This document shows, piece by piece, positions 4,131 to 58,114 of a DNA stretch of 64,000 nucleotides. The stretch lies in NCBI GenBank assembly GCA_017305715.1, contig JAFKKG010000026.1, forward strand, positions 62,001 through 126,000, written 5' to 3'. Numbering within the stretch: the first letter of the stretch is position 1; each line of letters starts with the position of its first letter. The notes below the pieces were generated by a model. That model ran no database searches. It was given only the letters and a program-made list of their open reading frames with translations, and had not been told where the DNA came from. The stretch is from Hyphomicrobiales bacterium (GTDB lineage Bacteria > Pseudomonadota > Alphaproteobacteria > Rhizobiales > Xanthobacteraceae). The position numbers and the translations under genes were made by a program.

Positions 4131-4146
4131 CGCGTCGCTTCTGCGG

Positions 4147-27719: not shown

Positions 27720-27897
27720 GCCGCCGGCGCCCGGCGAAGGACGGCTGGATGGACCGCGGGCGGTGCATAGCGGAAGCGGGCGCGCGGGTGGCGGCGTCCA
27801 CAGCGCCCCGATCAGGGCGTCGTCATTCCCGGCGGCAAGGCGCCGCGTTTTCGTCAACAGACGAGCGGGAATGTTTAAGTAAAGCAGAGGGATAAAA
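27720..27897. other. Spacer between last backbone gene and att site
   Basis: 178 bases with no gene. It turns AT-rich over the last 30 bases, as often seen downstream of a tRNA 3' end. Nothing else recognisable. Confidence 0.4.
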
Positions 27898-27942
27898 TGG
27901 TCGGAGCGAGAGGATTTGAACCTCCGACCCCTAGTCTCCCAG
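27898..27942 (-). other. Attachment site: 3' half of tRNA-Pro (anticodon GGG)
   Basis: Read on the minus strand this is the second half of a tRNA: anticodon loop CTGGGAG (anticodon GGG), the 3' side of its stem ACTAG, a variable region, a T-arm GGAGG-TTCAAAT-CCTCT, the acceptor strand CGCTCCGA and an encoded CCA (27898-27900). The 5' half is missing: to the right of about 27942 the sequence no longer pairs (no CTAGT for the anticodon stem, no D-arm). This is the duplicated target left by site-specific integration, and it faces the integrase that begins 126 bases later. The complete tRNA should be at the far junction. Confidence 0.85.
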
Positions 27943-28067
27943 TGATGCAAAATGGGCGTCTCGCTGGTGCTCACTAGATCTCTTTCGTTCTCAGTAATGC
28001 CTGTGGTACAGGGGTTTCTCTCATCTCTCCTTGTGCCAGAGTGTCTCGGCGCGTATCCTCCGTTCCT

Positions 28068-29366
28068 ATGCGAAAGTTTCCCAGAGTTTCCCAGAGGGTC
28101 GCTTTGACCGACCGCTTCTTGCGGGCGCTTAAGGCCTCAAATGGCCGGATCGAGGTGGGCGACGCTGTCTGTCGGGGCCTCTCGATCCGATGCACCCCCG
28201 CCGGCGTGAAGACTTGGACGTTCGCGTACAAGCTTAACGGTCGCATGCGCCGGATAACCCTTGGCGAATATGGCGAGCACCCTGCCCTGGGCCTCAGCGA
28301 AGCCCGTACGCAGGCGGACGCGCGGCGCGCGCAACGGCGCAACGGGGACGATCCTCGCGCTCTTCAGGATGCCGAACGAGCCACAAAGGCGCAAACAACG
28401 CTCACCTTCGCCGAATTGTGCGAGCTCTACATTGAGCACGTCAAAGCCAGCGGGAAGCTTAGTTGGAAGACTGACGAGGGCTATCTAAAGCGGCCCAAAG
28501 CCAAATTCGGCTCCAAGCCAGCCGCGTCGTTAACGAAGCGGGAGCTGCTCGACTTCCTCAAAGGGATAGCCCGAAAATCAAAGTCCAGCGCCAATCGAAC
28601 GCAGTCGACGGTCAGAACAATGTGGGGCTGGGCCGTTGAAGGCGACCATGTCCCGGTCAACTTCCTCGCCGGGCTCAAAAAGGTTGGTGGCAAAGAAAGG
28701 GAGAAGGACCGGGTTCTCACGACCGACGAGATCCAGGAATTCCTAACGACACTGGTAGCCTCTGACTTCGAGATCACAGAGACGGTTGGGCTGGCACTGA
28801 AAGGCATCCTATTAACCGCACAGCGCCCTGGCGAGGTGGCGGGCATGATGCTGTCCGAACTGCACGATCTGGACGGCGCCCTACCCCACTGGATCATCCC
28901 GCGAATTCGGACGAAGAATAAAAAGACGGAGCACACGGTGCCCCTGTCGCCCGCGGCGGTGCGTCTCATCCGTGAAGCTCTCGAGGCCAGTAAAGATTAT
29001 GCAAAAGGCAAGAACGACCGGCCGGTGTTCGCTAGCCGCTTCGAGGATATCACCAGCCTTGCCCGGCATTCCCTAAGTCAGGCGGTGCGGCGCCTGGTCA
29101 AAGACCAGAGATTTGCCGGGAAGTTTACCAAGTTCACTCCACATGATCTCCGACGTACGGCTGCCACCCTGGCGCAATCGATGCGCGTTCCGAAAGATCA
29201 CGTGAAGGCACTCCTGAACCACAACGACGGGGACGTTACTTCGATTTATGCGCGGTGGCACATGTTCGATGAGAAGCGCGAGGCTTCGCTCGCGATCGAG
29301 GCCGCGGTATTGCCGTTGATGCCGGCGCCGGCGGCGCACGCTGCTTTAGGCCTGCAATTTGCCTGA
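28068..29366 (+). CDS. Tyrosine-type site-specific integrase
   Basis: 432 residues. An N-terminal arm-binding (DUF4102-like) domain is seen in VCRGLSIRCTPAGVKTWTFA and RRITLGEYGEHPALGLSEAR, then a core-binding SAM-like domain and a catalytic domain with Arg in LTAQRPGEVAGM, His-x-x-Arg in TPHDLRRTAATLAQ and the nucleophile Tyr in DVTSIYARWHMFD. The family integrates islands into tRNA genes. ATG 28068 is preferred by comparison with the usual domain start; an in-frame GTG at 28041 is possible. Its position right beside the tRNA half-site indicates that it drives integration and excision of this element. Confidence 0.92.
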   Translation: MRKFPRVSQRVALTDRFLRALKASNGRIEVGDAVCRGLSIRCTPAGVKTWTFAYKLNGRMRRITLGEYGEHPALGLSEARTQADARRAQRRNGDDPRALQDAERATKAQTTLTFAELCELYIEHVKASGKLSWKTDEGYLKRPKAKFGSKPAASLTKRELLDFLKGIARKSKSSANRTQSTVRTMWGWAVEGDHVPVNFLAGLKKVGGKEREKDRVLTTDEIQEFLTTLVASDFEITETVGLALKGILLTAQRPGEVAGMMLSELHDLDGALPHWIIPRIRTKNKKTEHTVPLSPAAVRLIREALEASKDYAKGKNDRPVFASRFEDITSLARHSLSQAVRRLVKDQRFAGKFTKFTPHDLRRTAATLAQSMRVPKDHVKALLNHNDGDVTSIYARWHMFDEKREASLAIEAAVLPLMPAPAAHAALGLQFA

Positions 29367-30414: not shown

Positions 30415-30750
30415 ACGTTTCGGTCCCGACGCGACGTGATGCGACGTGACTTGCTGCCACTGGCCTTCGGGTCGTGGGGAGGGTTCGCAACCTCGAGAGT
30501 GCTCAATCTCAATTGAGCGATTGAAAGAACCACCCCTGGTTCGCCAGCTTTTTGCTTCACCAGCCAACGCGCTGAACAGCAAAAAGCCTGGCAGGAGCGA
30601 CCAACTCCAAACCAGGCCCAATTCGTTGCAGGTCTACATGCTACTAAATTTCCGCGGATTCCGCAAGGTTGCGGCCGCCATGTCGCGCTCTTGTCCAATC
30701 CCCTATAGGTACTCTTCGCCGTGTGAGTATCGCGTCGGGGGACGTTGCTG
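30415..30750 (+). promoter_or_regulatory. Control region of the replication gene with palindrome and hairpin
   Basis: 336 bases before the primase-helicase. Two structures are clear. GCTCAAT (30501-30507) and ATTGAGC (30512-30518) form a perfect 7-bp dyad around CTCA, like an operator half-site pair. GCCAGCTTTTTGCT (30543-30556) pairs with AGCAAAAAGCCTGGC (30578-30592) around a 21-base loop with one bulged base, a strong hairpin. A short direct repeat GCGACGTGA occurs twice near 30430-30450. These may serve as regulator sites, a transcription attenuator, or part of an origin. Confidence 0.5.
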
Positions 30751-33525
30751 ATGACTGCGCCCCTCCCCGCTACGGATACTTCCATCTCCAAACTGGATTA
30801 CGCGCTAGACGCGCGGCGCCGCGGCATGCGCATCTTTCCCATGTTGCCGGACAGTTCTGTCACAGCCTCGGCAGAAGCATACTGCAATCCAACCGACGAT
30901 GAAGCCAAAATACGCGAATGGTGGGCGGCCGATCCGACTCACAACATTGGCATCGCAACGGTGGAGCTTCTAGTCCTGCGCACCAGCACGGCGAAGGCGT
31001 CCGCGGAGCTGGGCCAATTGATTTCTGTCATGCTAGGCGACACACCGAAAACTACGCGGATTATTCATTTTGTCGGCCGCAAGTCCCCCGGGTTTTTGAT
31101 CTTCTCATTGCCGTCGGGCGCCCGCGTAGCTGAACGTGAAATCCTCCCTGGCGTTCGCGTGCTCTCAGATGATGACGCGATCCTTGGGCCCGGCTCGGAG
31201 ATCAACGAGCTGGAATCCATCTTCGCCAACGAGCGCTCCGTTGCACCCGCCCCGTCCTGGCTGATCGAAATGTGCGGCGTGACGCTGCCGGAAAGCAATC
31301 TAATGAACACTAATGTCGTCTCGATGCCGCGGCAGACCGCGGCCGAAATCGCCTCAAAAACGCAAGTCGAACGGGCTAAAGATGCAGCTGCACGACTGCA
31401 CATGAGCGTTTTTCCCGTGCACGCTTATGAAGACCCCGGCCCTGACGCCACGCCTGAACAGCGCCTTGTGGCTGCCAAGAAGGCAAAAACACCGCTCATC
31501 AAAGACTGGCAAAACCAAGCATCGCAAGACCCTGCTAAAATTGAAGAGATGTGGCGGCAATATCCGAACGCCAATATTGGCGGCGTGACGCGGGACCACA
31601 TCGTCGTTGATCTCGACCCACGCAATGGCGGCGAAGAAACGATGGCAGCCCTCCTAGCCGTCGAACACTTCCCCGACACCGCGGCAACCCGCACACAGAG
31701 CGGCGGCCGACATTTGATTTACGTGGCACCGAATGGTCCCGTAAAGGGCGGAACAGGCAAGCTCGGCCCCGGCGTCGATATCAAGGCGCGCGGCGGTTAT
31801 GTCCTGTTACCAGGATCGACGATCGAGGGTCGACCGTACGAATTCGAGATCTCGCGACCGCCGGCGTTCGCGCCACAATGGATCGTCGACCGGTGCGCTG
31901 CCGCCAAAGATAGGACCGATACGGCTGGAAAGCGCGTCGTAGAGGAAGACGATACCGCGCGCGAGATGTTTGTGGCTTGGATCCGCGAGCATGCCCCGTG
32001 CGCCGAACTTGGCGAAATCGACGACCGGACATTCCTAGTTTCCGCAAGGGGGTACGACTTTGGGTGTTCAGAATCCACGGTGCTTGAGCTCGTGCACGAA
32101 TGGAACGACACCCACTGCAACGGACTCGGCGATTTGGAACGCCTGCCCGTGGTAGTCGAATCTGCGGGCCGGAACCGGGACAAGGCAATCGGATCTAGCC
32201 ATCCTCTCGCGCCAGGGTTCGAGGCAGTAGAGATCGACCAAACGATGCGGCCGGGCCCTGTCGCGCGCAACGCCGCTCCGGCGCCGCCGGCGACGGGGCT
32301 CGCCACACCGCTGCTGCAATTCGATCCCGTCGGACTTGAGCTCCGCCCTTGGGTCATTCCTGGTTTTGCTTGTCGAGGGCGTGTCACGCTCCTCGCCGGA
32401 CCCGGCGGTGTGGCCAAGTCGACCTATTATCTCATGGTGGCCGTCGCGACCGTCTCCGGCCGCAGTGACATCTGCGGCTTTCCAATCTTGAAGCGCGAAC
32501 GCGTGTGGGTCTGGAATCAAGAAGATGACATTGCGGAGATGCAACGCCGCGTCGCCGCGATAATGAAAGAGTTCAATGTCTCCTGGGACGACCTCAAGGA
32601 CGAGGACGGCTCGCCCATGTTGTATCTCGACTCCGGCGTCGACAAACCGTTAATGCTGGCCAATCGTTCCGCCGAGCATTCAATTGTCCCAGGCAAGCAG
32701 GTAGCCGACGTCATCGCCACCGCAAAGGCGAACCGGATCGCGGTGCTGATCCTGGACCCGTTGGTAGAATTCCACGAGGCTTCGGAGAACGATAACGTCC
32801 AGATGAGGGCTGTAGTTGGCCAGGTGCGTCGGATAGCGGTGGAGGCGGACTGCGCCACGATGCTCTCGACCCACACCCGGAAGCCACCGGTTGCCTCCTC
32901 AGACGGCTTTGCGGGCGAGATGGACGCCGCCCGCGGCGCCAGCGCTCAGCTTGGCGTCGTCCGGATCGGGGCGACCATCTTCAGCATGTCTCCGAAGCAA
33001 GCCAAGGACCATCGGCTTGCCGAGGGGACGACGCATCTCGATTACGTCCGGATCGATATCGCCAAGAATAACCTGGCACCGGTGTTACCGGATCCGATCT
33101 GGTTCAGGCGTGTGGGTGTGCGCGTGGGCGGCGGGTTTGAGCAGAACGGCGAAAGTGTGGGGGTGCTCCGGCCGGTGACCCTCGATAAGAAGGTAGCCAC
33201 GTCTTCATCGATGCACCTTCCCAGCCTGCTGGCAGAAATCATCGCCACCAAGTTGAGCTGGGAGAAACATTTCAAGGTGTCCGAGGTGCTGGCGTGCGCG
33301 ACGCCGGCGCAGCAGGCCTTGTTTGGGGACAAGAAGAACCGCGCCAGATGCATCGCGGACGCGTTTGACGGCGCCGACGCGTGCCCGACGGAGGCTGGAA
33401 TTCTCACGAAGACATCAGCCCGGGGCAAGGAAATGACCCTGCATCTACGGCGGACTTCCTCACTTCCTCAGCCGCCGAAAAAGGGAGGAAGAGGTTCTGA
33501 AAATGACGACGACACAGAGACTTAA
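30751..33525 (+). CDS. PrimPol / RepA-like helicase fusion replication protein
   Basis: 924 residues. Residues 210-390 form a primase-polymerase domain of the bifunctional prim-pol family: RLHMSVFPVHAYED, the catalytic acids in VVDLDPRNGG (about 285-294) and GGRHLIYVAPNG (about 318). Residues 15-160 resemble the same fold (RRRGMRIFPMLPDSS, GRKSPGFLIFSLPSG) but the acidic pair is replaced by LVLRTST (about 74-80), so this copy is probably inactive. Residues 535-760 are a RecA-like hexameric helicase: Walker A LLAGPGGVAKSTYY, Walker B IAVLILDPLVEF, then MLSTHTRK. The C-terminus is low complexity with Pro/Lys/Gly. Such fusions replicate phages, satellites and plasmids. The ATG at 30751 is used; GGGGG lies 10 bases upstream. 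Confidence 0.85.
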   Translation: MTAPLPATDTSISKLDYALDARRRGMRIFPMLPDSSVTASAEAYCNPTDDEAKIREWWAADPTHNIGIATVELLVLRTSTAKASAELGQLISVMLGDTPKTTRIIHFVGRKSPGFLIFSLPSGARVAEREILPGVRVLSDDDAILGPGSEINELESIFANERSVAPAPSWLIEMCGVTLPESNLMNTNVVSMPRQTAAEIASKTQVERAKDAAARLHMSVFPVHAYEDPGPDATPEQRLVAAKKAKTPLIKDWQNQASQDPAKIEEMWRQYPNANIGGVTRDHIVVDLDPRNGGEETMAALLAVEHFPDTAATRTQSGGRHLIYVAPNGPVKGGTGKLGPGVDIKARGGYVLLPGSTIEGRPYEFEISRPPAFAPQWIVDRCAAAKDRTDTAGKRVVEEDDTAREMFVAWIREHAPCAELGEIDDRTFLVSARGYDFGCSESTVLELVHEWNDTHCNGLGDLERLPVVVESAGRNRDKAIGSSHPLAPGFEAVEIDQTMRPGPVARNAAPAPPATGLATPLLQFDPVGLELRPWVIPGFACRGRVTLLAGPGGVAKSTYYLMVAVATVSGRSDICGFPILKRERVWVWNQEDDIAEMQRRVAAIMKEFNVSWDDLKDEDGSPMLYLDSGVDKPLMLANRSAEHSIVPGKQVADVIATAKANRIAVLILDPLVEFHEASENDNVQMRAVVGQVRRIAVEADCATMLSTHTRKPPVASSDGFAGEMDAARGASAQLGVVRIGATIFSMSPKQAKDHRLAEGTTHLDYVRIDIAKNNLAPVLPDPIWFRRVGVRVGGGFEQNGESVGVLRPVTLDKKVATSSSMHLPSLLAEIIATKLSWEKHFKVSEVLACATPAQQALFGDKKNRARCIADAFDGADACPTEAGILTKTSARGKEMTLHLRRTSSLPQPPKKGGRGSENDDDTET

Positions 33526-33617
33526 CCCTCGACTTCCTCACGTGAGGAAGTTGGGTTGAGGAAGTCGGGGTCCAACTAGCTGAAAACAAAGGATTTCCCA
33601 ACTTCCTCACTTCCTCT
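33454..33617. repeat. Iteron-like repeat array, candidate replication origin
   Basis: The 9-mer ACTTCCTCA occurs four times forward (33454, 33462, 33532, 33601), once with one mismatch (33609), and twice inverted as TGAGGAAGT (33543, 33557), seven copies in 164 bases. The copies at 33532 and 33543 form the palindrome ACTTCCTCACGTGAGGAAGT. A further partial inverted copy is at 33485. The array straddles the end of the replication gene and the following spacer. Repeats of this length and number next to a replication protein are the usual sign of an iteron origin or of autorepression. No DnaA box or AT-rich block was recognised. Confidence 0.6.
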
Positions 33618-33745
33618 CCCTACGGGAGTTCGTCTCTGATGAAGACGAGAACAAACACCACGCAGGACACTGGCCGATTCCAGAAAAGGAAAGCCGCTTC
33701 GCCGCCGGCGCCCACCAGACCGATCCACCATTGAGTTTCTCAAAC

Positions 33746-39038: not shown

Positions 39039-40038
39039 CCGCCGACGGTGATCCAGAACGGGCACAAGTACATCAGCCTGACGGGGGCTACCAGTGAGGC
39101 TTACCGATCTGACGTGAGACGATCATACGTGCGGCGGCTAACCTCGGCATCTTGCGTGGGGTCTTCAAGAGAAGCGCGATTTCCCTGCCAATACGAGTGC
39201 ACTTCAATCACAAAATCCGAAGGACCGGCCGCGCAGGCCGGCGTTGCCGCCGCTCATGAAAACCTGCGGCAAGAGCCGAAATGCCTTTCCAAACGGGTGA
39301 CGCTAGGCGAGAGCGACCGAACCGGGAGCATTATGGTGAAACAACTTCTAGCTGGCGCCCTGCTCTGCGCGGCATCTAATTCGCCGACGGCGCAAACGAA
39401 CGCCGCTAGACAATTGCTCAAATCCCGCGTCGGGGTGACTTTGAAAGTGGTTGTGCAGGACATCGTTAGCACGATAATGCAGTTGAGCCGGTCTCCACTC
39501 GTTCGGCCCACATCGTTTCGGGCGCAGCAATCACCAAGCCGCTTTTTTTTGTCGCCAAACATCCGTCGGCCCCCCATGGCGCGCCGTTGTCTTTGCCGAT
39601 CGCATGGGCGCGACGGCCTTCGTTGAATTGAATGTCGACGCCCCTCCCCCCATCGGCCTGCTTAGGGTTCAGAAGGATATGCGCGTGATCAGATCAACGC
39701 ACTCGATAAATCCCCTGGGCAGGTTCTGGCGGCATCCCCGAGTGCAGTTGTGTGCACTAGGACGCGCTGAGATAAAACGCCACACTCAACAACCCCGCCC
39801 GCTGCCGGGGAGATGTACCACTTGGTCGCATCAACGCGATGTTACGAATCGCCACGGGTCGAACCGGTTGCCACCCCGAATATTGGTAAATCCGAATTGT
39901 TTCGGCGTTGCCGTCTTGAAACCTGCTTGCGCCGCGCGCCCGGTTGTTCCAAACAGGTTAGGCAACCATTCGACTCACAACGTGTCCCACGCCACGCCGG
40001 CAAGAGATCGGCGACGTGGGAGCCTTCGGAGAAGCTCA
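39039..40038. other. One kilobase without a confident gene; possible decayed phage or secreted-protein gene
   Basis: Directly after the virion-like gene one frame reads VIQNGHKYISLTGATSEAY, which looks like the worn start of a following phage gene. At 39334 an ATG after GGGAGC begins a signal-peptide-like piece (MVKQLLAGALLCAASNSPTA), but the frame soon loses protein-like composition. No intact gene, repeat or RNA was identified. Confidence 0.35.
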
Positions 40039-40830
40039 TTGCTTTCGTTGGTCTCACCGGTCTCGTATCTCAAACCAACAACCAGGGGAAAAACCGAACC
40101 GTTGATGGTGCTGTGCGAGCGGCAAGACGGCTCAGAAGTCGAACTCGTCGCCAAATTCTCCGGCGCGTGCGAGGAGAAAGAAGTCAACTTGGCACGCGAA
40201 GTGATCGCGGCTTGCCTTGCCGGCGACCTGGGGCTGCCGGTCGCCGAGCCAATGATTGTGGCCTCGTCGCCGCAATGGATCAGCAGCATTCCCGACCCGG
40301 CGGTGCGTGCCAAGGTCGCCGCCAGTTGCCCGGTAGCTTTCGGGTCAAAGCTTTGGACTGGGCAGTTTTCTGTCTGGAACTCCGGCACCCAGATAACCGA
40401 ATCGATGCTCCAGACAGCAGCCGCCATCTTCACTTTTGATGCCATCATCCAGAATTTCGATCGCCGGGACGAAAACCCAAACTGCTTAATTAATGGCGAA
40501 AGAATGCTGATATTCGACCACGAACAGGCCTTCATGCACGGGCTCGTGCTGTTCTGGACGCCACCTTGGACGCTGGGCGGACTACAAAATTTTGAAGTAC
40601 CGGCGCGGCACATTTTCCGCCCAAACCTGTTCGGCCGTGCTATCGATTTTCCGAGCATTAAGACTTCCTGGACCAATATCTCGGACCAACGGGTGACAGA
40701 GTACCTGGCGGCCGTCCCGCCGGAGTGGCGCGGCAACCAGGGTCCGCTCGATGCCGCACTCGCCCTGATCAGGGATGCCAGGGACAATATCGACGGCTGC
40801 TTACAAGAGATATCGCGGGTGCTGACATGA
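40039..40830 (+). CDS. HipA-like kinase (HipA_2 type), TTG start
   Basis: 263 residues. The catalytic-like segments are AIFTFDAIIQNFDRRDENPN (with the H/N-x-D-R motif of HipA-type kinases) and GERMLIFDHEQAFMHGL (D-H-E for the metal-binding Asp). The N-terminus LVSPVSYLKPTTRGKTEPLM matches the family start; reading it needs TTG at 40039, which has GGAG 7 bases upstream, while the first ATG (40105) would cut into the domain. The family is usually paired with the next gene's family, DUF3037, as here. Biological role not established; toxin-antitoxin-like function is suspected for relatives. Confidence 0.78.
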   Translation: MLSLVSPVSYLKPTTRGKTEPLMVLCERQDGSEVELVAKFSGACEEKEVNLAREVIAACLAGDLGLPVAEPMIVASSPQWISSIPDPAVRAKVAASCPVAFGSKLWTGQFSVWNSGTQITESMLQTAAAIFTFDAIIQNFDRRDENPNCLINGERMLIFDHEQAFMHGLVLFWTPPWTLGGLQNFEVPARHIFRPNLFGRAIDFPSIKTSWTNISDQRVTEYLAAVPPEWRGNQGPLDAALALIRDARDNIDGCLQEISRVLT

Positions 40831-51594: not shown

Positions 51595-51701
51595 GTGGTC
51601 GCAGCCGTCCTGAAGCCATCGACCTGGGCTAGGTTGGCGTTGCTGGCGTGGGCTTCACGGCTTATCTCCGTCGTAACCAGACTCCAGCACTCGGAGCCTG
51701 A
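51595..51701 (+). pseudogene. Remnant of a PEP-CTERM-type protein (C-terminal signal only)
   Basis: One frame reads AVLKPSTWARLALL, corresponding to the sorting signal VP-E[10 protein letters not shown] of the intact protein at 57501. A frame change leads to VGVAGVGFTAYLRRNQTPAL and a stop at 51699-51701, matching [13 protein letters not shown]. So the signal, stop and downstream hairpin survive, but the body of the gene is gone. Confidence 0.7.
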
Positions 51702-51723
51702 TCAAATCCAATTTTGAGAATGC

Positions 51724-51754
51724 AAAGAGACCGCCGTTGCCGGTGGTCTTCTTT
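51724..51754 (+). terminator. Terminator of the PEP-CTERM remnant
   Basis: AGACCGCC (51728-51735) pairs with GGTGGTCT (51742-51749) with one G-T pair, preceded by AAA and followed by TCTTT. The same kind of hairpin ends the intact PEP-CTERM gene. Confidence 0.6.
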
Positions 51755-57500: not shown

Positions 57501-58064
57501 ATGAAAATTAAGTCTCTGATTTCGGCATTATTTCTGAGCATTCCGATCTTCAGCGCTAGCCCTGCTCTTGCCGAAACTATTACGGCAAGTTTCACGACGC
57601 CAGATGGCGGTGTGACAACCGGACTATATAGTGGCGTCGTACACATAACTGTTTCGGGTTTCGGTATGTCATTAGGACCTGACCTCAACGACGCCTTTTA
57701 TCTTTTTAACCCGCAAAATCCTGCAGTGCACGCTACGGACTACTATCAGCTAACATTCGGAACCTCGCCATTGCTGCCTTTCAATCCGGCGCAGGATGCA
57801 TTCCTCTTCATTCCCGGTGGCGTGGTACCCGCCTACAATTCATCGCACGTCTACTCGTTCGATCTTGACACGGGATCCGTGGTGCCGACGCAGCTTCATT
57901 TCGGTGTGAGCGACGGCAACTTCACTGACAACTCGGGTGCCTTCACGATTACTGTAACCGCCGTTCCCGAGCTCTCTACCTGGGCAATGCTGATCCTCGG
58001 TTTTGCTGGCGTGGGCTTTATGACATATCACCGACGCAATCAGGTCGCAGCGCTCGCAGCCTGA
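57501..58064 (+). CDS. PEP-CTERM-type secreted protein
   Basis: 187 residues. Signal peptide [20 protein letters not shown]; a strand-rich body ([37 protein letters not shown] and [20 protein letters not shown]); and a C-terminal signal [20 protein letters not shown] followed by TYHRRNQ, which is the PEP-CTERM plan (motif, helix, basic end), with Leu in place of the second Pro. PEP-CTERM proteins are processed by an exosortase and exported to the cell surface or matrix; no exosortase is in this window. ATG 57501 has GGAAAC upstream. A terminator follows. Confidence 0.85.
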
Positions 58065-58089
58065 TCAAACCCGAAATCGAAAATACAAA

Positions 58090-58114
58090 GGCCGCCTTCG
58101 GGCGGTCTTTTTTG
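58090..58114 (+). terminator. Terminator of the PEP-CTERM gene
   Basis: GGCCGCC, loop TTCG, GGCGGTC, followed by seven T (58107-58113), starting 25 bases after the stop codon. A clear rho-independent terminator with a stable UUCG loop. Confidence 0.85.

Follow-up and report, generated by a model that had tools for sequence, protein, structure and literature searches.

Plasmid RSF1010 and the IncQ group rely on RepA, RepB' and RepC, and their oriV carries 20-bp iterons and ssi hairpins, the iterons being read by the separate RepC protein. The iterons of Staphylococcus aureus pathogenicity islands (SaPIs) lie just downstream of rep and are recognised by the C-terminal domain of the helicase (PMC7581432), and the origin of phage-inducible chromosomal islands (PICIs) is located 3' of rep (PMC6092414). 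ORF904 of plasmid pRN1 is a PrimPol-helicase-winged helix protein whose essential origin of about 100 nt starts 54 bp after the gene; this origin has a large stem-loop and no iterons, and specific binding in vitro was not seen by the authors (PMC4234260, in which RSF1010 is briefly mentioned). In the PICI-like elements (PLE), satellites of Vibrio cholerae, the RepA_N origin-binding domain and the origin vary together and are exchanged as one unit, for which an origin-cutting phage nuclease was considered by the authors to have likely selected (PMC8263062). Primases of the PrimPol-PV1 type occur fused to RepA-type helicases and to winged-helix domains, the latter suggested as origin recognisers (PMC5862659). 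Here we describe a short repeat array overlapping the 3' end of a PrimPol-AAA_25 helicase gene in a 64,000-nt stretch of a Hyphomicrobiales genome (assembly GCA_017305715.1, contig JAFKKG010000026.1, positions 62,001 to 126,000), hereafter the window. With a probability of roughly 0.85, this array would be the iteron-type replication origin of an integrated element, read by the C-terminal domain of the helicase encoded upstream.

The array occupies window positions 33454-33617 (164 nt) and contains seven copies of ACTTCCTCA, six exact and one near-exact. Exact forward copies start at 33454, 33462, 33532 and 33601, exact inverted copies at 33543 and 33557, and a forward copy with one mismatch at 33609. 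They form a plus-strand tandem pair with an 8-bp period within the last codons of the helicase gene (33454..33470), a perfect 20-bp palindrome that joins a forward copy to an inverted one (33532..33551; arms 33532-33541 and 33542-33551), a further inverted copy on the minus strand (33557..33565), and a second plus-strand tandem pair of one exact and one single-mismatch copy (33601..33617). A C-rich hairpin, CTCCC-TAC-GGGAG (CTCCCTACGGGAG; 33616..33628), sits at the array end and not inside the array, and is the counterpart of a hairpin found near many homologous arrays. An earlier note on this DNA had listed seven copies (four exact forward, one near-exact forward, two exact inverted) and the 20-base palindrome, all of which were found; of the copies that it placed in the last codons of the gene there are two, the 926-aa open reading frame (ORF) ending at 33525. 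Its further proposal, that the repeat shapes the protein tail, applies to the window but to few sites of relatives, since 59 of the 1168 sites called in homologous arrays start before the end of the stop codon. Since the sites of relatives mostly follow the stop, the coding overlap looks incidental.

Matches to ACTTCCTCA with at most one mismatch amount to 14 per 64 kb versus 8.2 +/- 2.7 in whole-window shuffles, and 7 of the 14 fall into the 164-nt array. The 9-mer was also counted genome-wide, a check that the earlier note had asked for, and was not dense outside the array: exact copies number 73 in the 7.45 Mb of the genome, which comprises 51 contigs, with six of them in the array, compared to 45 of the reversed control word. 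At this background rate, 0.0015 exact copies are expected in 164 nt.

Homologues of the helicase gene were gathered by whole-genome searches and from viral contigs, a contig search with the single protein having given one relative. The 392 loci were narrowed to 371 with the family ORF, to 318 with a score of at least 200 and at least 250 nt downstream, and finally to 204 non-redundant ones. Beside the first 29 homologous loci of the genus (L015-L043), the ACTTCCT array of the window did not recur; in 27 of them, some 8-mer was present at least three times near the gene end, the words differing between loci. In the 300 nt around the stop codon, the best 7-mer reached at least four copies in 75 of 104 homologues of the first collection with a score of at least 300; among 1485 control windows taken at these loci, 46 did so. 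At least five copies were present in 56/104 homologues versus 6/1485 controls. Homologues of the first collection scoring below 300 reached four copies in 16 of 40 cases (2/427 control windows). Counted strictly after the stop codon, some 7-mer occurs at least four times in 140 of the 204 non-redundant homologues, 132 of which score at least 300, and 113 of these 132 words fit one 9-bp frame, [AG][GCA]TGNNGCA, the 19 non-fitting ones including the word of the window. The frame was fitted on DNA alone from a starting shape picked by eye in the first loci, and its cut-off discards words unlike that shape. Within the frame, 94 complete consensus words represent 46 distinct words. Thus, the word is not conserved, and the arrangement is: of the conservation that the earlier note proposed to look for beside related PrimPol-helicase genes, the position and the repeat architecture recur, whereas the word differs. 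Neither of the two findings that the earlier note had named as speaking against its reading was obtained.

Several single loci extend this picture. The top count was obtained at L331, where the 7-mer CTTTCCA is present 17 times between -110 and +330 relative to the stop codon that follows position 4143. Three more distant helicases (L229, L230 and L231; score 186-211) share a common, quite different array word, ATTGACC, which is another frame of the same design. An exact tandem ACTTCCTCACTTCCTCA is found in five viral contigs (L009-L013). A 16-mer, ACTTCCTCACTTCCTC, was a rejected candidate: it is present in 3 of 296 family genomes, namely that of the window and two others, where it lies next to an ORF read as a TonB-type receptor and was taken as unrelated.

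Homologous arrays have a median of seven sites (at most one mismatch) over about 140 nt. Neighbouring sites are 8-11 bp apart in 238 of 712 cases, and in 228 of these 238 they have the same orientation. Of the 204 loci, 125 have a C-rich hairpin with a TA close to the middle, the median distance from the stop codon being 78 nt; the same was seen in 85 of 2762 controls. By a differently coded rule, it was present in 75 of 113 loci, with sites on both of its sides in 71 of the 75.

That the helicase protein itself would read these words is supported by covariation between protein residues and word letters. Mutual information was calculated for all 383 columns of the protein profile against the word positions, using 115 loci of an earlier word reading in which the window was included. 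Column 319 was the top column for positions 1 and 2 (excess 0.69 and 0.81; runners-up 0.21 and 0.46), column 369 for positions 5 and 6 (0.49 and 0.83; runner-up column 367 with 0.29 and 0.38) and column 368 for position 8 (0.59; runner-up 0.15), and no comparable column was obtained for positions 3, 4 and 9. The top columns stayed the same for 113 loci with words taken only after the stop, a reading that tested for a possible artefact of words being partly read from wing-encoding DNA.

The residue tables are based on these 113 loci, with words read only after the stop and the window left aside. All 95 loci with arginine in column 368 had C as the eighth letter, and the 18 loci with another residue had A (12), G (2), T (1) or no call (3). 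Glutamine in column 319 corresponded to GG at positions 1-2 in 52/57 loci and arginine to AC in 35/41. For column 369, positions 5-6 were GA with arginine (19/24), GC with lysine (24/40), CG with glutamate (6/7) and mixed with methionine; histidine went with C at position 6 in 13/13. The effect was also visible among close relatives. In pairs of the 115-locus reading with at least 75% identity in the helicase body, an identical residue in column 368 meant the same letter in 84 of 84 cases, and a different residue in 0 of 20. L294 and L321 (90% body identity) differ among the four determinant columns only by R368 to S, and their words change from ACTGGAGCA to ACTGGAGAA; L294 and L287 differ in these columns only by R369 to H, with a change from ACTGGAGCA to ACTGACGCA. 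Moreover, L087 and L088 have near-identical helicase bodies (1.00 after rounding) with different C-terminal domains and different words, which suggests that the reader and its array may have been exchanged as a cassette.

Two approaches addressed the contribution of common ancestry. In leave-one-out prediction on the 115-locus reading, ignoring proteins more than 60% identical in the body, column 319 gave 89 of 110 correct calls (nearest remaining neighbour 44, majority letter 53), column 369 gave 61 of 112 (26 and 23, respectively) and column 368 gave 106 of 112 (87 and 96). A parsimony co-change test used a helicase-body tree of 113 loci and covered 329 columns, column 368 being scored for presence or absence of arginine and position 8 for presence or absence of C. 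Changes of this pair fell on the same branch 13 times versus 1.1 expected, and those of column 319 with positions 1-2 did so 20 times versus 4.4 expected. Both pairings rank first among the 329 columns. Relatedness does not explain the covariation of columns 368 and 319.

When placed on a winged-helix model, the covarying columns fall in the S1-H2 loop and at the wing tip. The model of the C-terminal domain from L246, with a mean predicted local distance difference test score (pLDDT) of 81.5, has the helix and strand order of this fold; column 319 corresponds to its residue 38, in the loop that leads into the second helix (S1-H2 loop), and columns 366-369 to residues 85-88 of a wing loop spanning residues 84-88. 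Sequence searches with the domain gave no PDB match up to E 1, and Pfam gave no coherent match for 68 of its members. Foldseek with a 101-aa domain model returned nothing at E <= 0.001 (best 0.0096); several of its top 50 hits, all above that threshold, are presumably known winged-helix or MarR/PadR-type proteins.

In the window, the gene (30745..33525, plus strand) encodes a protein of 926 aa composed of a PrimPol domain (PF09250), an AAA_25/RepA-type helicase (PF13481) and a C-terminal winged-helix-like domain. Pfam recognises only the first two, Prim-Pol at 4.5e-50 (best stretch aa 212-379) and AAA_25 at 2.8e-30 (aa 530-714). The best PDB sequence match of the family profile is 1g8y, 'regulatory protein RepA' (E 2e-29), which we take to be the RepA of RSF1010. 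The predicted DNA-binding domain, delimited by an AlphaFold model and alignment, is encoded at 33109..33489 (plus strand), with A892-R893-G894-K895-E896 as the putative wing tip and K844 as the equivalent of column 319. Its model is weak (mean pLDDT 62.6, with model residues 41-70 at 74-81) and has two strands joined by A892-R893-G894-K895-E896; the placement of the wing is tentative because this region reaches a pLDDT of only 43-57. The word of the window, read as TGAGGAAGT, has A at position 8, consistent with a residue other than arginine at the 368 equivalent. For comparison, L113 (wing QGRE) has GGTGAGGAA and L283 (wing QGKP) has GGTGAGGA. Since the profile alignment puts the wing of the window protein elsewhere, its residue-to-letter fit is an extrapolation.

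The module is also present on extrachromosomal and phage-type records. Two circular plasmid records of Microvirga and one of Methylobacterium carry homologues, as does a circular Rhodoplanes record with capsid, portal and terminase genes. The best 7-mer after the gene occurs 6, 9 and 8 times in three circular records and 3 times in Microvirga terrae pR24_3. In the three Microvirga/Methylobacterium plasmid records, a toprim-domain gene precedes the helicase, and therefore the primase part is exchangeable; one of these three records has a tape-measure gene. One of the three, a plasmid of Microvirga lotononidis (L394; 4201-6610 and 10672-11910), has repB and repC in addition to the helicase module with its array and thus combines two replication systems, so the module is not always the sole replicon.

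In its RepA-type helicase (by the sequence match to 1g8y, E 2e-29), primase, iterons and hairpins, the locus resembles RSF1010/IncQ replicons. It differs in that its words are about 9 bp long and that, judging from the covariation, iteron reading appears to be fused to the helicase, whereas RSF1010 uses a separate RepC. With SaPIs and PICIs it shares repeats directly 3' of an initiator helicase gene, an adjacent primase function and, as predicted here, the C-terminal domain as the reader. The helicases of those islands are of the DUF927 or Primase_Cterm/D5-like type, as opposed to AAA_25/RepA in the window, and two sets of iterons flank an AT-rich region, whereas here the sites flank a C-rich hairpin (71/75) with no AT enrichment; residue-level covariation with the word was measured in the present family. 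The pRN1 system also has a PrimPol-helicase-winged helix protein and an origin downstream of its own gene, but its helicase belongs to SF3 and its origin lacks iterons, in contrast to the AAA_25 helicase and iteron array of the window. Covariation of the reader domain with the origin is a feature shared with PLE, which differ in the RepA_N family, in three semi-palindromic iterons of about 30 bp and in having two replicon groups. PrimPol-PV1 fusions follow the same domain logic as the window protein, the comparison being one of domain logic and not of supergroup membership. The closest published idea that we found is that winged-helix domains fused to primase-helicases recognise origins; in the accessible text this is a suggestion only, and the term iteron does not occur there (PMC5862659). 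Among the papers listed in searches of the open literature, judged by titles and the starts of abstracts and with few subscription journals included, none deals with iterons beside AAA_25/RepA-type helicase genes of such prophages or with a residue code for origin words.

The earlier note had read the array as an origin or iteron site, and the recurrent layout, together with the covariation of the word with C-terminal winged-helix residues, supports this reading. From these observations we infer the following mechanism. The C-terminal winged-helix domain would bind the 9-bp words, its S1-H2 loop contacting positions 1-2 and its wing tip positions 5-6 and 8. Helicase hexamers might thus gather on the array and then be loaded, and the adjacent C-rich hairpin would probably become accessible and serve in priming or strand opening. 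The layout is kept, with varying words, in related prophages, phage-like plasmids and islands, so that each initiator would read mainly origins with its own word. Selection for differing words could come from incompatibility or from origin-targeting rivals, similar to the proposal made for PLE and the Odn nuclease (PMC8263062). Extended to the whole group, we consider it slightly better than an even bet that a large family of mobile elements, mostly Alphaproteobacteria as sampled, carries a readable protein-DNA origin code. One residue of the S1-H2 loop and two or three of the wing tip would set the 9-bp word and thereby create many mutually exclusive origins, and the winged helix and array would be exchangeable as a cassette, driven by incompatibility or origin-targeting rivals.

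Covariation as such shows only that the protein reads DNA, and the array might accordingly be an operator through which the protein controls downstream genes or the end of its own transcript, with no role as an origin. In 14 of 15 loci, the nearest downstream ORF that reaches 90 aa is indeed co-directional, beginning 40-484 nt beyond the stop. We nevertheless regard an operator as improbable, because the reader belongs to a helicase, arrays of typically seven sites in some 140 nt (medians) with 228 of 238 close neighbours co-oriented are more iteron-like, the hairpin is often embedded in the array, and the origins of SaPIs and PICIs occupy the same place (PMC6092414, PMC7581432). The autorepression that the earlier note had offered as an alternative is weakened by the location of the array at the 3' end of its own gene and not at the promoter; control of the downstream genes may occur. 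A role of the array in packaging, partition or recombination, with this protein or a different one as the reader, would agree with the homologues on phage-type sequences near terminase genes (L053 and the Rhodoplanes record). It is very unlikely, given that the covarying residues belong to the helicase protein and that the module is also found on plasmid records and in the window element, whose scanned proteins included no recognisable phage structural protein. Least credible is a chance repeat produced by simple-sequence slippage or shared ancestry, with a purely phylogenetic covariation. The words are short, some are of low complexity, many loci are related, and column 369 did not pass the branch test. 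For columns 368 and 319, however, this explanation is contradicted by the control windows, leave-one-out prediction, after-stop reading and the branch test, and close pairs with a single determinant changed also have the corresponding letter changed.

Several observations weigh against the array being an iteron origin read through the proposed code. As many as 64 of the 204 homologues stay under four copies, and a relative in Rhizobium phage RHph_X2_26 is without such an array. No distinct AT-rich melting region was seen, the mean maximum AT content per 24 nt being 0.61 versus 0.57 and 0.59 in controls, and GC skew gave no support for an origin, since its extrema do not coincide with the array on the four plasmid-class records. 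Column 369 co-changed with positions 5-6 on 17 branches versus 12.5 expected (p 0.07) and is outside the top six columns. Among 26 pairs with at least 70% body identity and four equal determinant columns, the words were the same in 16 and different in 10, so further residues or noise in word calling must matter too. Finally, the window's own C-terminal domain is divergent and weakly modelled, and its word is under the frame cut-off (similarity 2.53 vs 3) and outside the 113-locus tables.

If the iteron-origin reading and its code are correct, origin incompatibility, usually worked out element by element, would become predictable from sequence through a few residues. Dozens of natural matched protein-DNA pairs would then be available in one winged-helix family, and they would allow testing how a wing tip, and not the usual third helix, sets base specificity. 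The arrays would also offer a route to locating origins and replication modules where prophages and islands are still unannotated.

The element carrying the array is about 45.9 kb long, lies at a tRNA-Pro gene and extends past the window. This extent follows from a 46-bp direct repeat, a probable att site, whose left copy (27897..27942) recurs identically at contig positions 135766-135811 (window-relative 73766-73811), where it overlaps an intact tRNA-Pro(GGG) gene. A tyrosine integrase recognised by Pfam and PHROGs is encoded at 28041..29366 on the plus strand. Among a subset of the ORFs, no capsid, portal, terminase or tail genes were detected in 10 element proteins with PHROGs or in 25 distinct element proteins with Pfam. 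The element is thus best called an integrative element, and it could be a prophage or satellite. Rfam at gathering thresholds gave no match in the window. Two further features lie inside the element: an 88-nt direct repeat at window positions 51640-51727 and 58003-58090 (76% identical, 6.4 kb apart), and, at 39604-40830, a gene for a HipA-like kinase (PF20613), perhaps part of a toxin-antitoxin or defence locus.
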